Notes under the pieces: generated by a model | What the model saw: the letters and a program-made list of their open reading frames with translations, nothing else | Databases searched by the model: none | What the model was told of the DNA's origin: nothing | Program-made: the position numbers and the translations under genes | Origin: Neisseria cinerea | GTDB lineage: Bacteria; Pseudomonadota; Gammaproteobacteria; Burkholderiales; Neisseriaceae | Reading direction: 5' to 3' | DNA: 64,000 nucleotides | Assembly: GCF_900475315.1 (NCBI RefSeq) | Contig: NZ_LS483369.1 | Span: forward strand, 1,550,001 to 1,614,000 | Shown: piece after piece, positions 23,097-28,247 of the stretch | How the letters are laid out: every line of letters begins with the position of its first letter | Position numbering within the stretch: the first letter of the stretch is position 1

Positions 23097-23990
23097 TCAA
23101 TAACGGTATGCCGCCAGTTTACGTTTAATTTCAGGCAATGCGGCACGTGCGGCCTCTTCACCTAACCGGATGGCGCGTTTTTTCTGATCGAATCCGCCAA
23201 CAGACCCCAAATCCAACACCTGCGGTTTGATGACAACATTTGCCTGCCCCAATTCGTTTTGCAGTGCGGAAACGCTCATTACGTTCAGTGTCTGATCGAG
23301 ATAAGAGAAGAACCCTTGATTGACATTTTTGCTCGGACGTGCGGAAATATCGACGGCAATGACAAAATTCGCTCCCTGCCGCCTGGCCGAACTGACAGGG
23401 ACGGGCTGCGACAGACCGCCGTCAACATATTTGTGCCTGCCGATGATGACTGGCTGGAACACATTGGGAATTGCTGCGGAAGCACGAACCGCCTGTCCGA
23501 CATTCCCCTGATTAAAAGCGACGGCTTTGCCGGTTTCAAAATCAGTGGCAACGGCGGCAAATTTAATGGGAAACTGCTGGATTTGCAATCCACCGACCTT
23601 TTGGTTGATATAAGACTGCAGTTTTTCACCTTTGATAAAACCACTGGTGGACAAGGTTAAATCGACTAAATCCGTTTTACCTAAAATCTCGGCTTCCAAT
23701 TCAAGGCGGTCTGGAGACATTCCTGATGCATAAAGACTGCCGACTATCGAACCTGCCGATGTACCGGTTACAACCTTCACAGGAATACCATTTTCTTTCA
23801 AAACCTTAATAATCCCTATATGGGCAAATCCTTTAGATGCCCCGCCACCGAGAGCCAAACCGACCACTGCAGTAGGTTTAGAGGTTTGTACGGGTTTGCG
23901 TGCAGTTTGGCTCCCTGTCGTACCGCATGCGGTAAACAGCAAAATTGCCGGCACAGCCCAAAACTGTTTGATTTTTGAAAAATTTAACAT
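23097..23990 (-). CDS. Patatin-like phospholipase family lipoprotein
   Basis: A 297-residue protein with a lipoprotein signal ending in LLFTAC and a patatin-like (RssA-type) domain: the oxyanion-hole segment GGGASKGFAHIG, the nucleophile elbow GTSAG and the catalytic aspartate in VDGGLSQPVPV. It is predicted to be a serine-aspartate lipid acyl hydrolase attached to a membrane on the periplasmic side; the substrate is unknown. ATG 23990 is used because AAAGGAA precedes it and it places the signal at the N-terminus. It is divergent from the DoxX-hvfA operon. Confidence 0.85.
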   Translation of the reverse strand: MLNFSKIKQFWAVPAILLFTACGTTGSQTARKPVQTSKPTAVVGLALGGGASKGFAHIGIIKVLKENGIPVKVVTGTSAGSIVGSLYASGMSPDRLELEAEILGKTDLVDLTLSTSGFIKGEKLQSYINQKVGGLQIQQFPIKFAAVATDFETGKAVAFNQGNVGQAVRASAAIPNVFQPVIIGRHKYVDGGLSQPVPVSSARRQGANFVIAVDISARPSKNVNQGFFSYLDQTLNVMSVSALQNELGQANVVIKPQVLDLGSVGGFDQKKRAIRLGEEAARAALPEIKRKLAAYRY

Positions 23991-24159
23991 ATTTATTATT
24001 CCTTTACCTGATACGGTCACTGCATTCTACACATTTTCCAATATTAGGAATTATCTCATAACGGCCCCATTCCCTAAACATCAACCTCATTCCCTTCACT
24101 CTATTAGTAGAATATTTATTATATATATTCAATGTGTTACTAAGATTTCAATGATTCAG

Positions 24160-24189
24160 TGTAAGTTTTACATAATAAATATCGTCTAA
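24160..24189 (+). promoter_or_regulatory. Candidate ECF sigma (sigma-E) promoter of the DoxX-hvfABC-rpoE operon
   Basis: GTAAGTTTT (24161-24169) and CGTCTAA (24183-24189) stand with about 17 bases between the GTAAG and CGTC cores, 28 bp before the first start codon. GTAA/CGTC pairs are a typical ECF sigma-factor promoter form, and the operon encodes its own ECF factor, so autoregulation is expected. Assignment is by pattern only. Confidence 0.55.
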
Positions 24190-24217
24190 TAGCATATCAA
24201 TAGAAACAGGAAATTTT

Positions 24218-24667
24218 ATGAAAAACGGAACAATCTGGCAGACGGCATTATCCATGCTGATTTTACGTTTGTTTGCCGCATATGAATTTTTAGAATCAGG
24301 TTTGCAAAAATGGAACGGGGAAAACTGGTTTTCAGAAATTAACAGCCAATTCCCTTTCCCATTTAACATCTTTCCTGACAGCTTAAACTGGAATCTCGCC
24401 ATGTATGCAGAGCTCTTGTTACCTGTCTTATTGCTCTTAGGACTGGCAACACGCCTTTCAGCATTAGGACTGATAATAGTTACTGCTGTCGCATGGGCTG
24501 CAGTTCATGCCGGTTTGGGCTACAATGTCTGCGACAACGGCTATAAAATGGCTTTAATTTATATCGTGGTTTTGATCCCCCTGCTGCTTCAAGGAGCGGG
24601 TATTTGGTCGCTTGACCAACTGATCAAACACCGTTTTTGCGCCAAATGCCGTCTAAAAAACAATTGA
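24218..24667 (+). CDS. DoxX family membrane protein
   Basis: A 149-residue inner-membrane protein with four predicted helices and the DoxX-like start LRLFAAYEFLESGLQKW. DoxX proteins are common accessory partners in HvfABC/bufferin-type RiPP operons, where their role is unsettled (redox or metal handling in the membrane has been suggested). ACAGGAAA precedes the ATG. It is the first gene of the operon. Its last codons (CRLKNN) run through a decayed uptake sequence, ATGCCGTCTAAA at 24646-24657. Confidence 0.85.
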   Translation: MKNGTIWQTALSMLILRLFAAYEFLESGLQKWNGENWFSEINSQFPFPFNIFPDSLNWNLAMYAELLLPVLLLLGLATRLSALGLIIVTAVAWAAVHAGLGYNVCDNGYKMALIYIVVLIPLLLQGAGIWSLDQLIKHRFCAKCRLKNN

Positions 24668-24737
24668 TTCGGTCGAGGAAGGCGACTTTAAAAACTTCCA
24701 ACTTAACTGCCTATTTTTTATTTAGAAAGGAATTACC

Positions 24738-24986
24738 ATGAAAAAAACCGTAGCAGCAGCCCTGGCCGGCGCATTATCCCTGTCTTTAGCATCCGGTGCA
24801 GTTGCCGCCGACAAACCTGCTACAGCAGAAAAACCTGCCGCTAAAGCAGCAGAAGGTACTTGCGGATCTGCAAAAGCTACTGAAGGAAAATGCGGGGCAA
24901 GTGCAAAAAAAGCGCCTGCCAAGCAAGCAAAAGCTACCAAAGCAGCAGAAGGTAAATGCGGCGAAGGTAAATGCGGTTCTAAATAA
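24738..24986 (+). CDS. HvfA-type cysteine-rich RiPP metallophore precursor
   Basis: An 82-residue precursor: a Sec signal peptide (residues 1-23, MKKTVAAALAGALSLSL then ASGAVA), a Lys/Ala/Pro-rich low-complexity stretch and four motifs EGTCG, EGKCG, EGKCG, EGKCG with Cys42, Cys52, Cys74 and Cys79. This is the pattern of HvfA/BufA2-type substrates, whose EGKC cysteines are converted to copper-binding sulfur heterocycles by a DUF692 enzyme and its DUF2063 partner, both encoded directly downstream. AAAGGAA precedes the ATG. Modification and metal binding here are inferred from family, not shown. Confidence 0.85.
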   Translation: MKKTVAAALAGALSLSLASGAVAADKPATAEKPAAKAAEGTCGSAKATEGKCGASAKKAPAKQAKATKAAEGKCGEGKCGSK

Positions 24987-24998
24987 CACCGTATTCTG

Positions 24999-25032
24999 AA
25001 AAGCCGCATTTTGACGATAAATGCGGCTTTTT
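24999..25032 (+). terminator. Intrinsic terminator/attenuator between hvfA and hvfB
   Basis: AAAAGCCGCATTT (24999-25011) pairs perfectly with AAATGCGGCTTTT (25019-25031) across a 7-base loop, followed by T residues. It lies just after the precursor gene, so it would give more precursor than enzyme transcript. Confidence 0.8.
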
Positions 25033-25080
25033 AACAACAAATAAAGGTTGTTACAGGCTCTTTTTTAATATTCTGTTGAT

Positions 25081-25098
25081 TTTGCATTATGATGCAAA
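25081..25098. repeat. Palindrome between hvfA and hvfB
   Basis: TTTGCAT-TATG-ATGCAAA, a perfect 7-bp inverted repeat in the 217 bp hvfA-hvfB gap. It could be a repressor operator for a second promoter in front of hvfB; a loose TATACT follows at 25182-25187. Significance unproven. Confidence 0.4.
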
Positions 25099-25203
25099 GT
25101 AATTGTTTTGTAATTTATTAAGTTTAGATGACCAAATCGACAGTATTTTAAAACATTGCTTTTTTCATCATCAAATTTCTTTATACTGCCTCCGGATGAA
25201 ATC

Positions 25204-26046
25204 ATGATTCAACATGCAGGCTTAGGCTACCGCCGCGACTTGGCGGAAGACTTTCTTTCACTTTCAGACAACAGCCCGATACGCTTTATCGAGGCCGCCC
25301 CCGAAAACTGGATGAAAATGGGCGGCAGGGCGCGCAAACAATTTGACCGCGTGGCGGAACGGCTACCGCTGGCGTTGCACGGATTATCCATGTCGCTGGG
25401 CGGACAAGCCCCGCTGGATACCGATTTGATAGACGGCATCAAAGAAATGATGCGCCGTTATGACTGCACGTTTTTCTCCGACCATTTGAGCTACTGCCAC
25501 GACGGCGGTCATCTTTACGATTTGTTGCCGCTGCCTTTCACTGAAGAAATGGTGCAACATACTGCGCGCCGTATCCACGAAGTGCAGGATCGGTTGGGCT
25601 GCCGTATTGCCGTAGAAAACACGTCCTACTACCTGCATTCTCCGCTTGCCGAGATGAACGAGGTTGAGTTCCTCAACGCTGTTGCCCGTGAAGCCGACTG
25701 TGGCATTCATTTGGACGTGAACAATATTTACGTCAACGCCGTCAACCACGGACTGTTGTCGCCTGAAGCCTTTTTAGAAAATGTGGACGCAGAGCGCGTG
25801 TGCTATATCCATATTGCCGGACATGATGTGGAAACGCCCGAGCTTTTGATTGATACGCATGGCGCGGCGGTTTTGCCGACCGTTTGGGATTTGCTCGAAC
25901 TCGCCTATGCCAAACTGCCGACGATTCCGCCCACCCTATTGGAACGCGATTTCAATTTTCCGCCTTTTGCCGAACTCGAAGTCGAAGTCGCCAAAATTAC
26001 CGACTATCAAACGCGTGCCGGAAAGGAACACCGCCGTGCAGCCTGA
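25204..26046 (+). CDS. DUF692 multinuclear iron oxygenase (MNIO, HvfB/BufB-type)
   Basis: A 280-residue TIM-barrel DUF692 protein. In this family two or three iron atoms oxidise peptide cysteines of a precursor. Candidate metal ligands are visible in conserved positions: [10 protein letters not shown] (His59), SDHLSYC (His94), VENTSYY (Glu138), [17 protein letters not shown] (His169, Asp171, His182), IHIAGHD (His203, His207), DTHGA (Asp218, His219) and LLERDFNFP (Glu247). The ATG at 25204 is preferred over an upstream extension lacking conservation. It overlaps the next gene by 11 bp, consistent with a HvfB-HvfC complex. Expected substrate: the product of 24738-24986. Confidence 0.9.
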
Positions 26047-26782
26047 AACCTCCGCCCAATACCAACACCGCTTTGCCCAAGCCATACGCGAAGGCGAAGC
26101 CGCCGACGGATTGCCGCAAGACCGCTTGAACGTCTATATCCGACTGATACGAAACAACATTCACAGCTTTATCGACCGCTGTTATACCGAAACGCTGCAA
26201 TACTTTGACAGTGAAGAATGGGGACGTCTGAAAGAAGATTTCGTCCGCGACGCGCACGCCCAAACGCCCTATTTTCAAGAAATCCCCGGCGAGTTCCTCC
26301 GATATTGCCAAAGCCTGCCGCTTTCAGACGGCATTTTGGCACTGATGGATTTTGAATATACACAATTGCTTGCAGAAGTTGCGCAAATTTCAGATATTCC
26401 AAATATTCGCTATTCAAATGACATTAAATATACTCTATCCCCTACGGCTTTTATACGGCGATATCGCTATGATGTTATTGATAGCCTGCAGGAAATAGAT
26501 TGGGGCTTATTAATCTGGAGAGACAGTGAAGATAATGTAATGTACCAAACACTGGATGATTTCGAAGCTATGCTGCTGGAAATGATGAACTCATCCTCAA
26601 TTTCACTTAACATGCTAACCCAAACTCTTATCGAATTTATGCCTGATACCGATAATTGGAAAAAAATGTTGATAGACAAATGGTTAAACTGGATTGATCA
26701 AAGAATTATAATCCCTGCTTTACCCGCTGCATCCCAAAATATAGAAAACAGCTCTGCATTTCAAAAGCACATATCCGCATAA
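26036..26782 (+). CDS. DUF2063 RiPP-recognition partner protein (HvfC/BufC-type)
   Basis: A 248-residue protein whose N-terminal half has the DUF2063 pattern ([38 protein letters not shown]). In related systems this protein binds the precursor and presents it to the DUF692 enzyme. The GTG at 26036, with AAGGA upstream, is chosen; the longer frame overlaps hvfB. Base composition drops sharply to AT-rich after an embedded AT-DUS at 26323-26334, so the second half of the gene may have a different origin from the first. Confidence 0.85.
26323..26334 (-). repeat. AT-DUS inside hvfC at a composition break
   Basis: TTCAGACGGCAT on the plus strand, translated as part of LSDGI. Sequence to its left is GC-rich; sequence to its right through rpoE is AT-rich. 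Confidence 0.85.
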
Positions 26783-26803
26783 AACCACCCTATTCCCGAT
26801 ACT

Positions 26804-27391
26804 ATGCCGCTACCCGACCTGACCGATGCCGAATTAATGGAGTCGCGCAAACTGCTTCTGCATTTTACGCAGCTCCAATTGCCTGACTATCCTGATTTGG
26901 CTGAAGATTTAGTGCAGGAAACATTACTGTCTGCATACAGCGCAGGCAACAGTTTTCAAGGCAGGGCGTTTGTCAACAGCTGGCTTTTTGCCATATTGAA
27001 AAACAAAATTATTGACGCATTACGTCAAATCGGGAGGCAAAGGAAAATCTTTACCGCACTGGATGACGAACTGCTGGATGAAACATTTGAAAGCCATTTT
27101 TTCCCAAACGGGCATTGGACACCGGAAGGGCAACCTCAACATTGGAACACTCCGGAAAAATCATTAAATAACAACGAATTTCAAAAAATTCTGCAAAGCT
27201 GCCTATACAACCTTCCTGAAAACACCGCACGGGTATTCACCCTGAAAGAAATACTCGGTTTTTCATCCAACGAAATACAACAAATGTGCGGTATCAGTAC
27301 AGCCAACTACCACACCATTATGCACCGCGCCCGAGAATCATTGCGCCAATGCTTACAAATTAAATGGTTCAACCAAGAAAACCCGAAGTAA
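26804..27391 (+). CDS. rpoE: ECF-type RNA polymerase sigma factor (sigma-E)
   Basis: A 195-residue extracytoplasmic-function sigma factor. Region 2 is seen in DLAEDLVQETLLSAY followed by SWLFAILKNKIIDALRQ, and region 4 in LPENTARVFTLKEI followed by ISTANYHTIMHRARESLRQ. It directs core polymerase to its own operon and, from published work on meningococcal and gonococcal Ecf, to the msrAB methionine sulfoxide reductase gene. It starts 21 bp after hvfC and is followed by its anti-sigma factor 5 bp downstream. Confidence 0.9.
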   Translation: MPLPDLTDAELMESRKLLLHFTQLQLPDYPDLAEDLVQETLLSAYSAGNSFQGRAFVNSWLFAILKNKIIDALRQIGRQRKIFTALDDELLDETFESHFFPNGHWTPEGQPQHWNTPEKSLNNNEFQKILQSCLYNLPENTARVFTLKEILGFSSNEIQQMCGISTANYHTIMHRARESLRQCLQIKWFNQENPK

Positions 27392-27396
27392 ACGTT

Positions 27397-27576
27397 ATGA
27401 AAAAATGCCGCGATATTACCCTGCTTCTTTCCAAACATCAGGAACGGGAAACCACCCCGAGCGAGAAGATTTCAATATACATACATCTGCTGTTCTGCCC
27501 GCATTGCCGGGAATATAAAAGACAGCTTCAAACCATCAAAATATCACTGGCAAAAACAACCCGAACTTCAAAATAA
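27397..27576 (+). CDS. Zinc-binding anti-sigma factor (ZAS family, MseR-like)
   Basis: A small soluble 59-residue protein with the ZAS metal motif His-x3-Cys-x2-Cys (His30, Cys34, Cys37 in HLLFCPHC) and an extra Cys4. It should hold the preceding sigma factor inactive until thiol oxidation or metal displacement. It matches the gene described in meningococcus as MseR, the sigma-E antagonist, in size, position and motif; the name is from memory. ATG 27397 is chosen because the longer frame overlaps rpoE by 28 bp. Confidence 0.88.
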   Translation: MKKCRDITLLLSKHQERETTPSEKISIYIHLLFCPHCREYKRQLQTIKISLAKTTRTSK

Positions 27577-27609
27577 ATGCCGTCTGAAATATCAACCTTC
27601 AGACGGCAT
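27577..27609 (+). terminator. Inverted AT-DUS pair ending the hvf-rpoE operon
   Basis: AT-DUS 27577-27588, overlapping the end of the anti-sigma gene, and complement 27598-27609. Confidence 0.8.
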
Positions 27610-27827
27610 AGCAGGAAATAAATCAAACTAATTTACTGTTGTAGACAGTTCATCCATAATATACACTTCAAAAGCAGCATATTTTCTATAATAAGAAATA
27701 CAAATATTCCAAACATGCAAAGTTACATGAGTGTTGCCATGTGTTTATCTCATTTAATAGAATATTATCTCCCTCGCTTAACCCCATATTTCTAAATAAC
27801 AAATTTACAACCATCAAGGAAATCCTA

Positions 27828-28247
27828 ATGCGTTCTACCTTACCCCTTATTTTACTTCCCATTTTACTGATCTCCTGCAGTACATTAAACAGTTCTTCTC
27901 AATGGGAAAATATCGGCACTATCTCAAACGGCAATATTCATGTATATATCAATAAAGACAATTTCAAAAAGAACGGAAATATTATAATTTTTCAAGATAA
28001 AAAAGTTGTTATCGATCTAAAACAAGAACGTTTCGCCAACACTCCCGCATATAAGACAGCCATTGCCGAATGGGAAATCCACTGCAACAATAAAACATAC
28101 CGCTTAAGTTCACTACAGTTGTTTGATACAAAAAACGTAGAAATTTCCAGACAATCCTACACAGCCTCTTCGCTTCGCCCAATGAGTATCTTATCTGGAA
28201 CATTAACTGAAAAACAATATGAAATCGTATGCAAAAGAAAACTATGA
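27828..28247 (+). CDS. Putative lipoprotein, surface-adhesin E-like
   Basis: A 139-residue protein with a lipoprotein signal peptide (MRSTLPLILLPILL then ISCS, lipobox Cys at residue 19). The mature part has a WENIG start, a V.ID pattern and paired cysteines (IHCNN and EIVCKR), resembling the small beta-rich surface-adhesin E / ACP-like fold. The family call is tentative. CAAGGAAATC precedes the ATG. The gene is AT-rich relative to its neighbours and stands alone. Confidence 0.65.
   Translation: MRSTLPLILLPILLISCSTLNSSSQWENIGTISNGNIHVYINKDNFKKNGNIIIFQDKKVVIDLKQERFANTPAYKTAIAEWEIHCNNKTYRLSSLQLFDTKNVEISRQSYTASSLRPMSILSGTLTEKQYEIVCKRKL

Follow-up and report, generated by a model that had tools for sequence, protein, structure and literature searches.

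A probable captophorin cluster carrying its own sigma-E switch in Neisseria

Results and Discussion

Identity and organisation of the operon

The window (the whole 64,000-nucleotide stretch of DNA that was analysed) contains an operon of six genes, all on one strand, which is the orthologue of the published neisserial sigma-E operon NMB2140-2145/NGO1948-1943. The best explanation for the operon as a whole, to which we assign a probability of about 0.8, is a captophorin (5-thiooxazole copper-peptide) cluster that carries its own switch. The host is a Neisseria with a genome of 1.83 Mb. The genes follow the order doxX, precursor, MNIO, DUF2063, sigma factor and anti-sigma factor, which is identical in loci L003-L006. 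This layout had been given in a preliminary description of the DNA, and the list of open reading frames and the Pfam and NCBIfam matches placed every gene where it had been put. For five of the six proteins the NCBIfam score exceeds the curated cut-off, and the precursor passes one domain model; therefore the operon is not a chance assembly. The call of a RiPP copper metallophore, made in the same description, is supported in the form of a captophorin cluster by the families of the MNIO, the HvfC protein and the EGxCG precursor.

The cluster is mostly ordinary, since close relatives of both of its halves are published. The operon, its autoregulation, MseR and msrAB have been in print since 2010-2011 (PMC2893595, PMC3240639, as far as their available text goes), and the gonococcal product has been described as a Cu-binding 5-thiooxazole peptide since 2025-26 (PMC12668002, available portion). 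The words MseR, anti-sigma and msrAB are absent from the main text of two versions of the captophorin paper, and thus the RiPP and sigma-E halves were not found explicitly joined there. Joining them links a small Neisseria sigma-E regulon, consisting of four once-hypothetical genes and msrAB, with a copper peptide of defined chemistry, and the purpose of the regulon thereby becomes testable in a commensal. Some details of layout and evolution are new. Added here are the placement of the sigma pair, an internal hairpin, precursors with a lipobox, and a precursor and RRE that have diverged around a conserved catalytic core; the last three extend a known system in specific ways and are cheap to test.

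Precursor peptide and maturation enzymes

The operon starts with doxX/hvfX (24218..24667, plus strand), which encodes a DoxX-family membrane protein of 149 aa (PF07681, 79 bits; NF050144 HvfX, 135.9 bits with a cut-off of 80). It is followed by the gene for an HvfA/gonophorin-like RiPP precursor of 82 aa (24738..24986, plus strand; NF050137, 31.4 bits with a cut-off of 19.5). By eye the precursor has a Sec-type N-terminus, and its 4 Cys lie in one EGTCG and three EGKCG motifs, exactly the four EG(T/K)CG motifs described earlier. It reaches 37 of the 95 bits of the HvfA equivalog NF050188, and a Pfam profile search gave no match at E 0.1, DUF2282 included. Among Neisseriaceae operons, 14 of 38 encode a lipobox precursor according to a regular expression rather than a signal-peptide predictor; in this tally L130-L132, where a near-lipobox is present, were counted as Sec, and L118 can be read either way.

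The MNIO (DUF692) gene (25204..26046, plus strand) encodes an HvfB-type maturase of 280 aa (PF05114, 327.6 bits; NF003818, 375 bits with a cut-off of 360) which matches PDB 3bww with an E value of 3.6e-117. We have taken its start as the ATG at 25204, while the list of open reading frames gives a longer TTG start at 25156. The HvfC/PME1 partner of 248 aa (26036..26782, plus strand; PF09836 and PF22106; NF050145, 159.3 bits with a cut-off of 142) combines DUF2063 with an RRE and matches PDB 3dee residues 2-249 over its full length (E 4e-129). Its GTG start gives an overlap of 11 bp with the MNIO gene (26036-26046), and with this start the overlap noted earlier is correct. By NF003818 and NF050145 both an HvfB-type MNIO and its PME1/HvfC partner with DUF2063 and RRE are present. 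HvfB is described as a di-iron enzyme, and HvfC is named as its required partner, in the available text of PMC13419390.

Sigma-E promoter and the sigma/anti-sigma pair

A sigma-E promoter, GTAAGTTTT - 13 nt - CGTCTAAT (24161..24190, plus strand), follows the published neisserial consensus GTMAGBWTT/CGTCTAAH and lies 28 nt before doxX. The consensus has two matches in the whole genome, before doxX and before msrAB, and a reversed-pattern control gave one match. The second promoter lies 32 nt before msrAB, the identity of which was established by a profile match (MsrAB, 1014.9 bits with a cut-off of 522). As sequence evidence, the two consensus promoters support the co-regulation with msrAB that had been proposed. 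Across the 30 promoter-pattern loci examined, DoxX or MsrAB is encoded less than 200 nt downstream in 21, and the exact pattern occurs in only 19 of the 38 HvfC-bearing genomes.

The ECF sigma factor (sigma-E/Ecf) of 195 aa (26804..27391, plus strand; NF009184, 373.6 bits with a cut-off of 276) is 94-95% identical to those of five close relatives. The adjacent gene (27397..27576, plus strand) encodes an anti-sigma factor of 59 aa with matches to NF052368 (75.2 bits, cut-off 50) and zf-HC2 (29.5 bits, cut-off 22.2). Its C4, H30, C34 and C37 are the residues of published MseR, in agreement with the earlier assignment as an MseR-type zinc anti-sigma factor. The meningococcal operon is reported to be co-transcribed and autoregulated, Cys mutants of MseR have been described (PMC2893595, available portion), and RNA-seq of a delta-mseR strain of N. 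meningitidis is reported to show doxX up 35.9-fold and msrA up 80.5-fold (PMC3240639, likewise).

Hairpins within and behind the operon

The preliminary description had allowed the operon one terminator, which is wrong on two counts. It missed a terminator-like hairpin with a T-run between the precursor and MNIO genes (24997..25033, plus strand), which has an MFE of -20 kcal/mol and a z of -5.6, with 0 of 200 shuffles equally stable; this hairpin is not in the program's list of terminator-like hairpins for the window. The distal hairpin (27577..27609, no strand assigned) is an inverted repeat 3' of the operon that folds at -19 kcal/mol and is listed as terminator-like on the minus strand only. 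We take this repeat to be DUS-like. The precursor-MNIO gap also holds a hairpin in the five close relatives and in 23 of 38 operons, the latter figure coming from an ad hoc detector that compared each gap with 10 mononucleotide shuffles and was applied to related rows, with weak matches in L099, L115, L130 and L131 and a gap in L124 shortened by an altered reading frame. The internal hairpin would probably result in more doxX/precursor mRNA than mRNA for the enzymes and regulators.

Distribution and divergence

HvfC is present in 38 of 83 Neisseriaceae genomes and the anti-sigma factor accompanies it in all 38, with only three of the 83 containing the anti-sigma factor without HvfC. The sigma pair lies 3' of the RiPP genes in 36 of the 38 Neisseriaceae operons. 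In other families it was found upstream of the RiPP genes in three loci, these being the linked loci read in a class sample from which weak HvfC matches near an anti-sigma match (e.g. G215, G295, G333, G344) were left out. A Microbulbifer relative of the anti-sigma factor (L007) is found with a sigma factor and no HvfB match within the 12 kb examined, and for this reason was set aside.

The precursor and RRE segments of the window have diverged, in contrast to the conserved catalytic core, and HvfC residues 109-248 are 64-65% identical to those of the neisserial sigma-E operon relatives. Among 46 genomes of the genus, no donor of the two divergent segments closer than the gonococcal group was found, and this group has 73-75% DNA identity to them over long stretches. 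The segments may have diverged rapidly in place or may have been imported from a lineage outside the sample. The non-coding stretch 27601-27900 3' of the operon is also divergent (48-76%), and segment one may therefore owe part of its divergence to the ordinary drift of non-coding DNA. The row at 23901, the first on the upstream side, was left out as an alignment edge.

Inducing signal and function

From the orthologues, a sequence of events can be proposed in which a change at the Cys/Zn site of the anti-sigma factor would free sigma-E, the trigger probably being an oxidant of the phagocyte type, and not the same one in every species. Freed sigma-E would transcribe its own operon and msrAB. 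In the cytoplasm HvfC, through its RRE, would present the precursor to HvfB, the di-iron MNIO, and the EGxCG cysteines would become 5-thiooxazoles. The modified peptide would then be exported by Sec and may bind copper in the periplasm, with MsrAB repairing oxidised methionines.

The preliminary description had copper releasing sigma-E, and this claim is unsupported: no statement of it was found in the literature searched, and the reported inducers are H2O2, neutrophils and hypochlorite. In the available texts, H2O2 induces NGO1947 3.3-fold and NGO1948 5.9-fold in the gonococcus (PMC3745409), neutrophils are a reported inducer there (PMC11257400), and hypochlorite induces RpoE2 of H. influenzae (PMC7907618). 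Redox release is not general, because H2O2, diamide and singlet oxygen all failed to induce meningococcal sigma-E (PMC2893595, available portion). Survival with neutrophils is reported to be unchanged by gonococcal ecf deletion (PMC11257400) and by insertion in NGO1948, the doxX gene (PMC3745409). That copper, or zinc loss driven by copper, releases sigma-E and that the operon serves solely in defence against copper seems unlikely to us. The gonococcal product does bind Cu, the anti-sigma factor belongs to a zinc-finger family, and the captophorin papers, in their available text, state that other such clusters are induced by excess metal, copper or gold. However, the co-regulated gene is msrAB, which repairs oxidant damage, and the literature searched (main text) yielded no statement on an effect of copper on neisserial sigma-E. 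The word 'copper' has 0 occurrences in the text available from PMC2893595 and PMC3240639, indicating that copper was untried there rather than excluded.

The peptide might instead be mainly a periplasmic oxidant sink or thiol buffer with copper binding secondary, a reading that is possible but doubtful. It would fit msrAB as the regulon partner, the oxidants and neutrophils reported as inducers, and the ready alkylation of 5-thiooxazoles (PMC12668002, available portion); it sits less well with the copper loading which the same text reports for gonophorin and fontiphorin, and no measurement of oxidant scavenging was found in the literature searched. A paper on the crystal structure of an HvfC-type protein (PMC2954202, available text) proposed DNA binding, which would make the DUF2063 protein a regulator and the operon mainly regulatory. 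We reject this as highly improbable, since the protein of that structure, 3dee, was later reassigned as an RRE-containing MNIO partner and HvfC is named as the required partner of HvfB (PMC13419390). For related pairs, modification of the precursor in a purified system is reported to depend on HvfC. Our own joint reading, offered tentatively, is that the captophorin cluster deals with metal and oxidant within a response to phagocyte oxidants and does not belong to a copper response, that a partial terminator between the precursor and enzyme genes sets the dose of substrate, that precursor and HvfC RRE change together as matched partners while HvfB and the HvfC N-domain form a conserved catalytic core, and that some relatives have soluble periplasmic as well as lipid-anchored forms of the peptide.

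Comparison with known systems

Bufferins (Buf1/DUF2282, Buf2) resemble the window operon in their MNIO, signal peptide and copper, and often in DUF2063 and DoxX genes. We reject membership of this family, since the window precursor has no DUF2282 match and the window MNIO stays under the BufB cut-off (260.8 of 310). The named anti-sigma factor of Buf1 clusters is NrsF, whereas that of the window is a zinc-finger protein.

The oxazolin system of H. influenzae (hvfABC, hvfX), with RpoE2/HrsE, has the same four biosynthetic families as the window, and both are under ECF/zinc anti-sigma control together with msrAB. In H. influenzae, however, the sigma and anti-sigma genes are near msrAB, separated from it by a single gene, and the doxX cluster is found at another place (PMC7907618, available text).

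Gonophorin, the captophorin of N. gonorrhoeae (ngoABC), is reported to contain 5-thiooxazoles and to bind 1-2 Cu (PMC12668002, available portion), while the window peptide is predicted from its genes. The two share EGxCG repeats and a Sec-type N-terminus, HvfB is 95% identical and HvfC residues 1-108 are 92% identical. The precursor of the gonococcal locus is longer, with 102 aa and six Cys as compared to 82 aa and four in the window.

The neisserial sigma-E operon NMB2140-2145/NGO1948-1943 (rpoE/ecf, mseR) shares with the window its gene order, promoter consensus, anti-sigma Cys/His residues and msrAB as second target. The promoter spacer is 13 nt in the window as compared to 12 in the five close relatives.

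Gene content and mosaic divergence of the operon

The six genes (doxX/hvfX, precursor, hvfB, hvfC, ECF sigma factor and anti-sigma factor, all on the forward strand) were recovered by gene calling in the window with the order, strand and lengths of the preliminary description. The 11-bp overlap of hvfB and hvfC is also correct, given a GTG start for HvfC, and the zinc-thiol motif of the anti-sigma factor is present as C4, H30, C34 and C37. Family searches identified HvfX (DoxX), an HvfA-like precursor, HvfB (MNIO/DUF692), HvfC (DUF2063 and NGO1945_C) and a regulator pair made up of an ECF sigma factor and a zf-HC2 anti-sigma factor. Five of the six proteins score above a curated NCBIfam cut-off; the precursor exceeds the threshold of the KCGExKCG domain model and stays below that of the HvfA equivalog. 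HvfB has a match in PDB entry 3bww, and HvfC aligns end to end with 3dee, which is gonococcal NGO1945. An Adhesin_E-family gene (27828-28247) lies directly 3' of the operon, and likewise downstream in the close relatives L003, L004, L006 and L120.

DNA comparison in 100-base steps with five close relatives (L003-L006 and L120) gave 85-99% identity for the MNIO gene, the initial portion of hvfC and the sigma and anti-sigma genes. Identity falls to 31-87% in the stretch that holds the promoter, doxX, the precursor and the gap (24001-25200) and to 69-78% in the second half of hvfC (26401-26800), where one relative is lower due to an insertion. The non-coding DNA after the operon (27601-27900) is also divergent (48-76%; the sequence of one relative stops there). 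The proteins have identities to the gonococcal locus of 85% (DoxX), 69% (precursor), 95% (HvfB), 95% (sigma) and 93% (anti-sigma), while HvfC, cut at residue 108 by our own choice, is 92% identical over residues 1-108 and 65% over 109-248. In seven more distant relatives within the genus (L098, L100, L101, L103, L104, L107 and L113), HvfB is 95-98% and HvfC 1-108 is 88-94% identical, whereas HvfC 109-248 is only 49-53% identical; the sigma factor, where present, is 69-73% identical. The conserved part is therefore the catalytic core and the variable part the precursor and its reader, the RRE of HvfC, which suggests, at the level of sequence, a joint change of substrate and RRE. No nearer source for the divergent segments was found among 46 genomes of the genus.

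Two relatives carry altered copies. In the N. polysaccharea draft (L006/L124) the end of the precursor frame is altered and the last EGKCG pair is missing, and in N. viridiae (L004/L125) about 0.85 kb of extra DNA interrupts hvfC near its 3' end, before the sigma gene.

An internal hairpin between precursor and MNIO genes

A single terminator had been assigned to the operon. This finds no support, since a further hairpin (15 bp, -20 kcal/mol), accompanied by a T-run, lies in the 217-nt gap that separates the precursor stop codon from the MNIO start codon. None of 200 shuffles was as stable (mean -6.2 kcal/mol). The five close relatives also have a hairpin in this gap, although its sequence differs somewhat. 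Across 38 operons (37 relatives and the window), which are related to one another, an ad hoc detector found a gap hairpin in 23 and none in 15, with 0.5 expected in total from ten mononucleotide shuffles per gap.

Read densities recomputed from a table in PMC3240639 for a meningococcal delta-mseR strain, with gene lengths taken from the window or from gonococcus and loci paired by order, are about 416 reads/nt for doxX, 196 for the precursor, 75 for MNIO, 54 for HvfC and 17 for sigma. A drop at the hairpin gap is compatible with these counts; the fall goes on beyond the gap, and therefore polarity may contribute. RT-PCR products have been reported to cross the gap (PMC2893595), so read-through occurs and the hairpin would be a partial terminator.

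Lipobox precursors

Sorting of precursors by regular expression found a lipobox and Sec-type pair in 12 of the 38 operons, a lipobox precursor alone in two and only Sec-type precursors in 24, including the window. The 14 lipobox precursors (L106, L108, L109, L111, L112, L114-L118, L122, L123, L127 and L128) are EGKCG-type, and it is possible from their sequences that they are lipid-anchored captophorins. A 2025 survey notes lipoprotein signals in about 16% of Buf2 bufferins, its sole use of the term (PMC12452194), and a preprint of 2025 whose title names the lipoprotein pathway deals with a different MNIO peptide (PMC12636315). The word "lipoprotein" is absent from the main text of PMC12668002, PMC13097082 and PMC13419390.

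Sigma coupling and the sigma-E promoter

Among 83 Neisseriaceae genomes HvfC occurs in 38 and the anti-sigma factor in 41; all 38 HvfC genomes have the anti-sigma factor, three have it alone and 42 have neither. These three (G003, G009 and G029; loci L136-L138) carry sigma and anti-sigma genes with no HvfC match genome-wide and represent a natural switch without RiPP genes. The sigma pair lies 3' of hvfC on the same strand in 36 of the 38 operons, within about 0.35 kb (about 0.9 kb in L125), the exceptions being G015 and G016. In G015 (L104, L140) the pair is about 11 kb away from the RiPP genes, and msrAB begins about 2.5 kb past hvfC on the strand of the RiPP operon.

In a class sample of 274 genomes, HvfC matches were found in 161 (93 above cut-off) and anti-sigma matches in 59 (43 above cut-off). 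Three loci from three other families (L160-L162), chosen among the HvfC matches listed, each combine on a single strand the genes for sigma, anti-sigma, an EGKCG precursor, HvfB and HvfC, and in all three the sigma pair lies 5' of the precursor gene; the anti-sigma score in one of them (G317) is slightly below cut-off. No DoxX match was found in 9 kb of any of the three. Sigma coupling therefore extends beyond Neisseria, which fits a functional association.

The consensus published for neisserial sigma-E promoters (GTMAGBWTT, spacer 12-13, CGTCTAAH; PMC2893595) matches twice in the 1,832,904-base genome, against one match for the reversed pattern. One match is 28 nt 5' of doxX and the other 32 nt 5' of a 522-aa gene identified as MsrAB (1014.9 bits, cut-off 522). 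The proposed tie to methionine sulfoxide repair was right, although msrAB itself is outside the window. The 83 genomes hold 40 matches spread over 23 genomes (reversed pattern, 8), and in 21 of 30 loci inspected among the 40, DoxX or MsrAB lies less than 200 nt downstream; in nine it does not. At least one match is present in 19 of the 38 HvfC-bearing genomes and none in the other 19, so the exact pattern suits only part of the family.

The releasing signal

Copper or oxidised thiols had been proposed to release sigma-E. In the literature searched, no induction by copper is reported for Neisseria, which leaves the claim for copper unsupported. In gonococcus, H2O2 is reported to raise NGO1947 3.3-fold and NGO1948 5.9-fold (PMC3745409), and neutrophils to raise msrAB, NGO1944, NGO1945, NGO1946 and NGO1948; the precursor gene NGO1947 is missing from that list, and survival of an ecf mutant with neutrophils is described as unchanged (PMC11257400). 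Meningococcal sigma-E is described as unresponsive to H2O2, diamide and singlet oxygen (PMC2893595). The best description of the releasing signal is a probable oxidant that depends on the species. Fur is reported to bind a predicted box in the NGO1948 (doxX) promoter region, with expression unchanged under the conditions tested (PMC4014563). In a published gonococcal screen, a transposon allele of NGO1947 gave no colonies and a doxX allele was recovered (PMC3745409).

Comparison with known systems

Hopman et al. (2010) described NMB2140-2145 as a single sigma-E-dependent operon, with msrA/msrB as the other target, NMB2145 (MseR) as an anti-sigma factor with important cysteines and NGO1948-1943 as the gonococcal orthologues (PMC2893595); RNA-seq is reported to agree (PMC3240639). 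Under HOCl, Haemophilus RpoE2 is reported to govern both msrAB and a doxX cluster homologous to this one (PMC7907618). Gonophorin, made from expressed ngo genes, is reported to contain 5-thiooxazoles and to bind one or two Cu atoms (PMC12668002; journal version PMC13097082). The captophorin paper relates such clusters to metals and oxidative stress by reviewing earlier literature, the RpoE2 and gonococcal H2O2 studies among it (PMC12668002), and the main text of either version contains none of the terms MseR, anti-sigma, msrAB, Hopman and Gunesekere. Because of the papers on the sigma-E operon, MseR and msrAB and those on gonophorin chemistry and copper, both halves of the preliminary idea are already in print. 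The operon is real and was correctly read, and its core is known from earlier work on close relatives; its interest lies in the hairpin inside the operon, the repeated coupling to a sigma pair, the precursors with a lipobox and the divergence of precursor and RRE.
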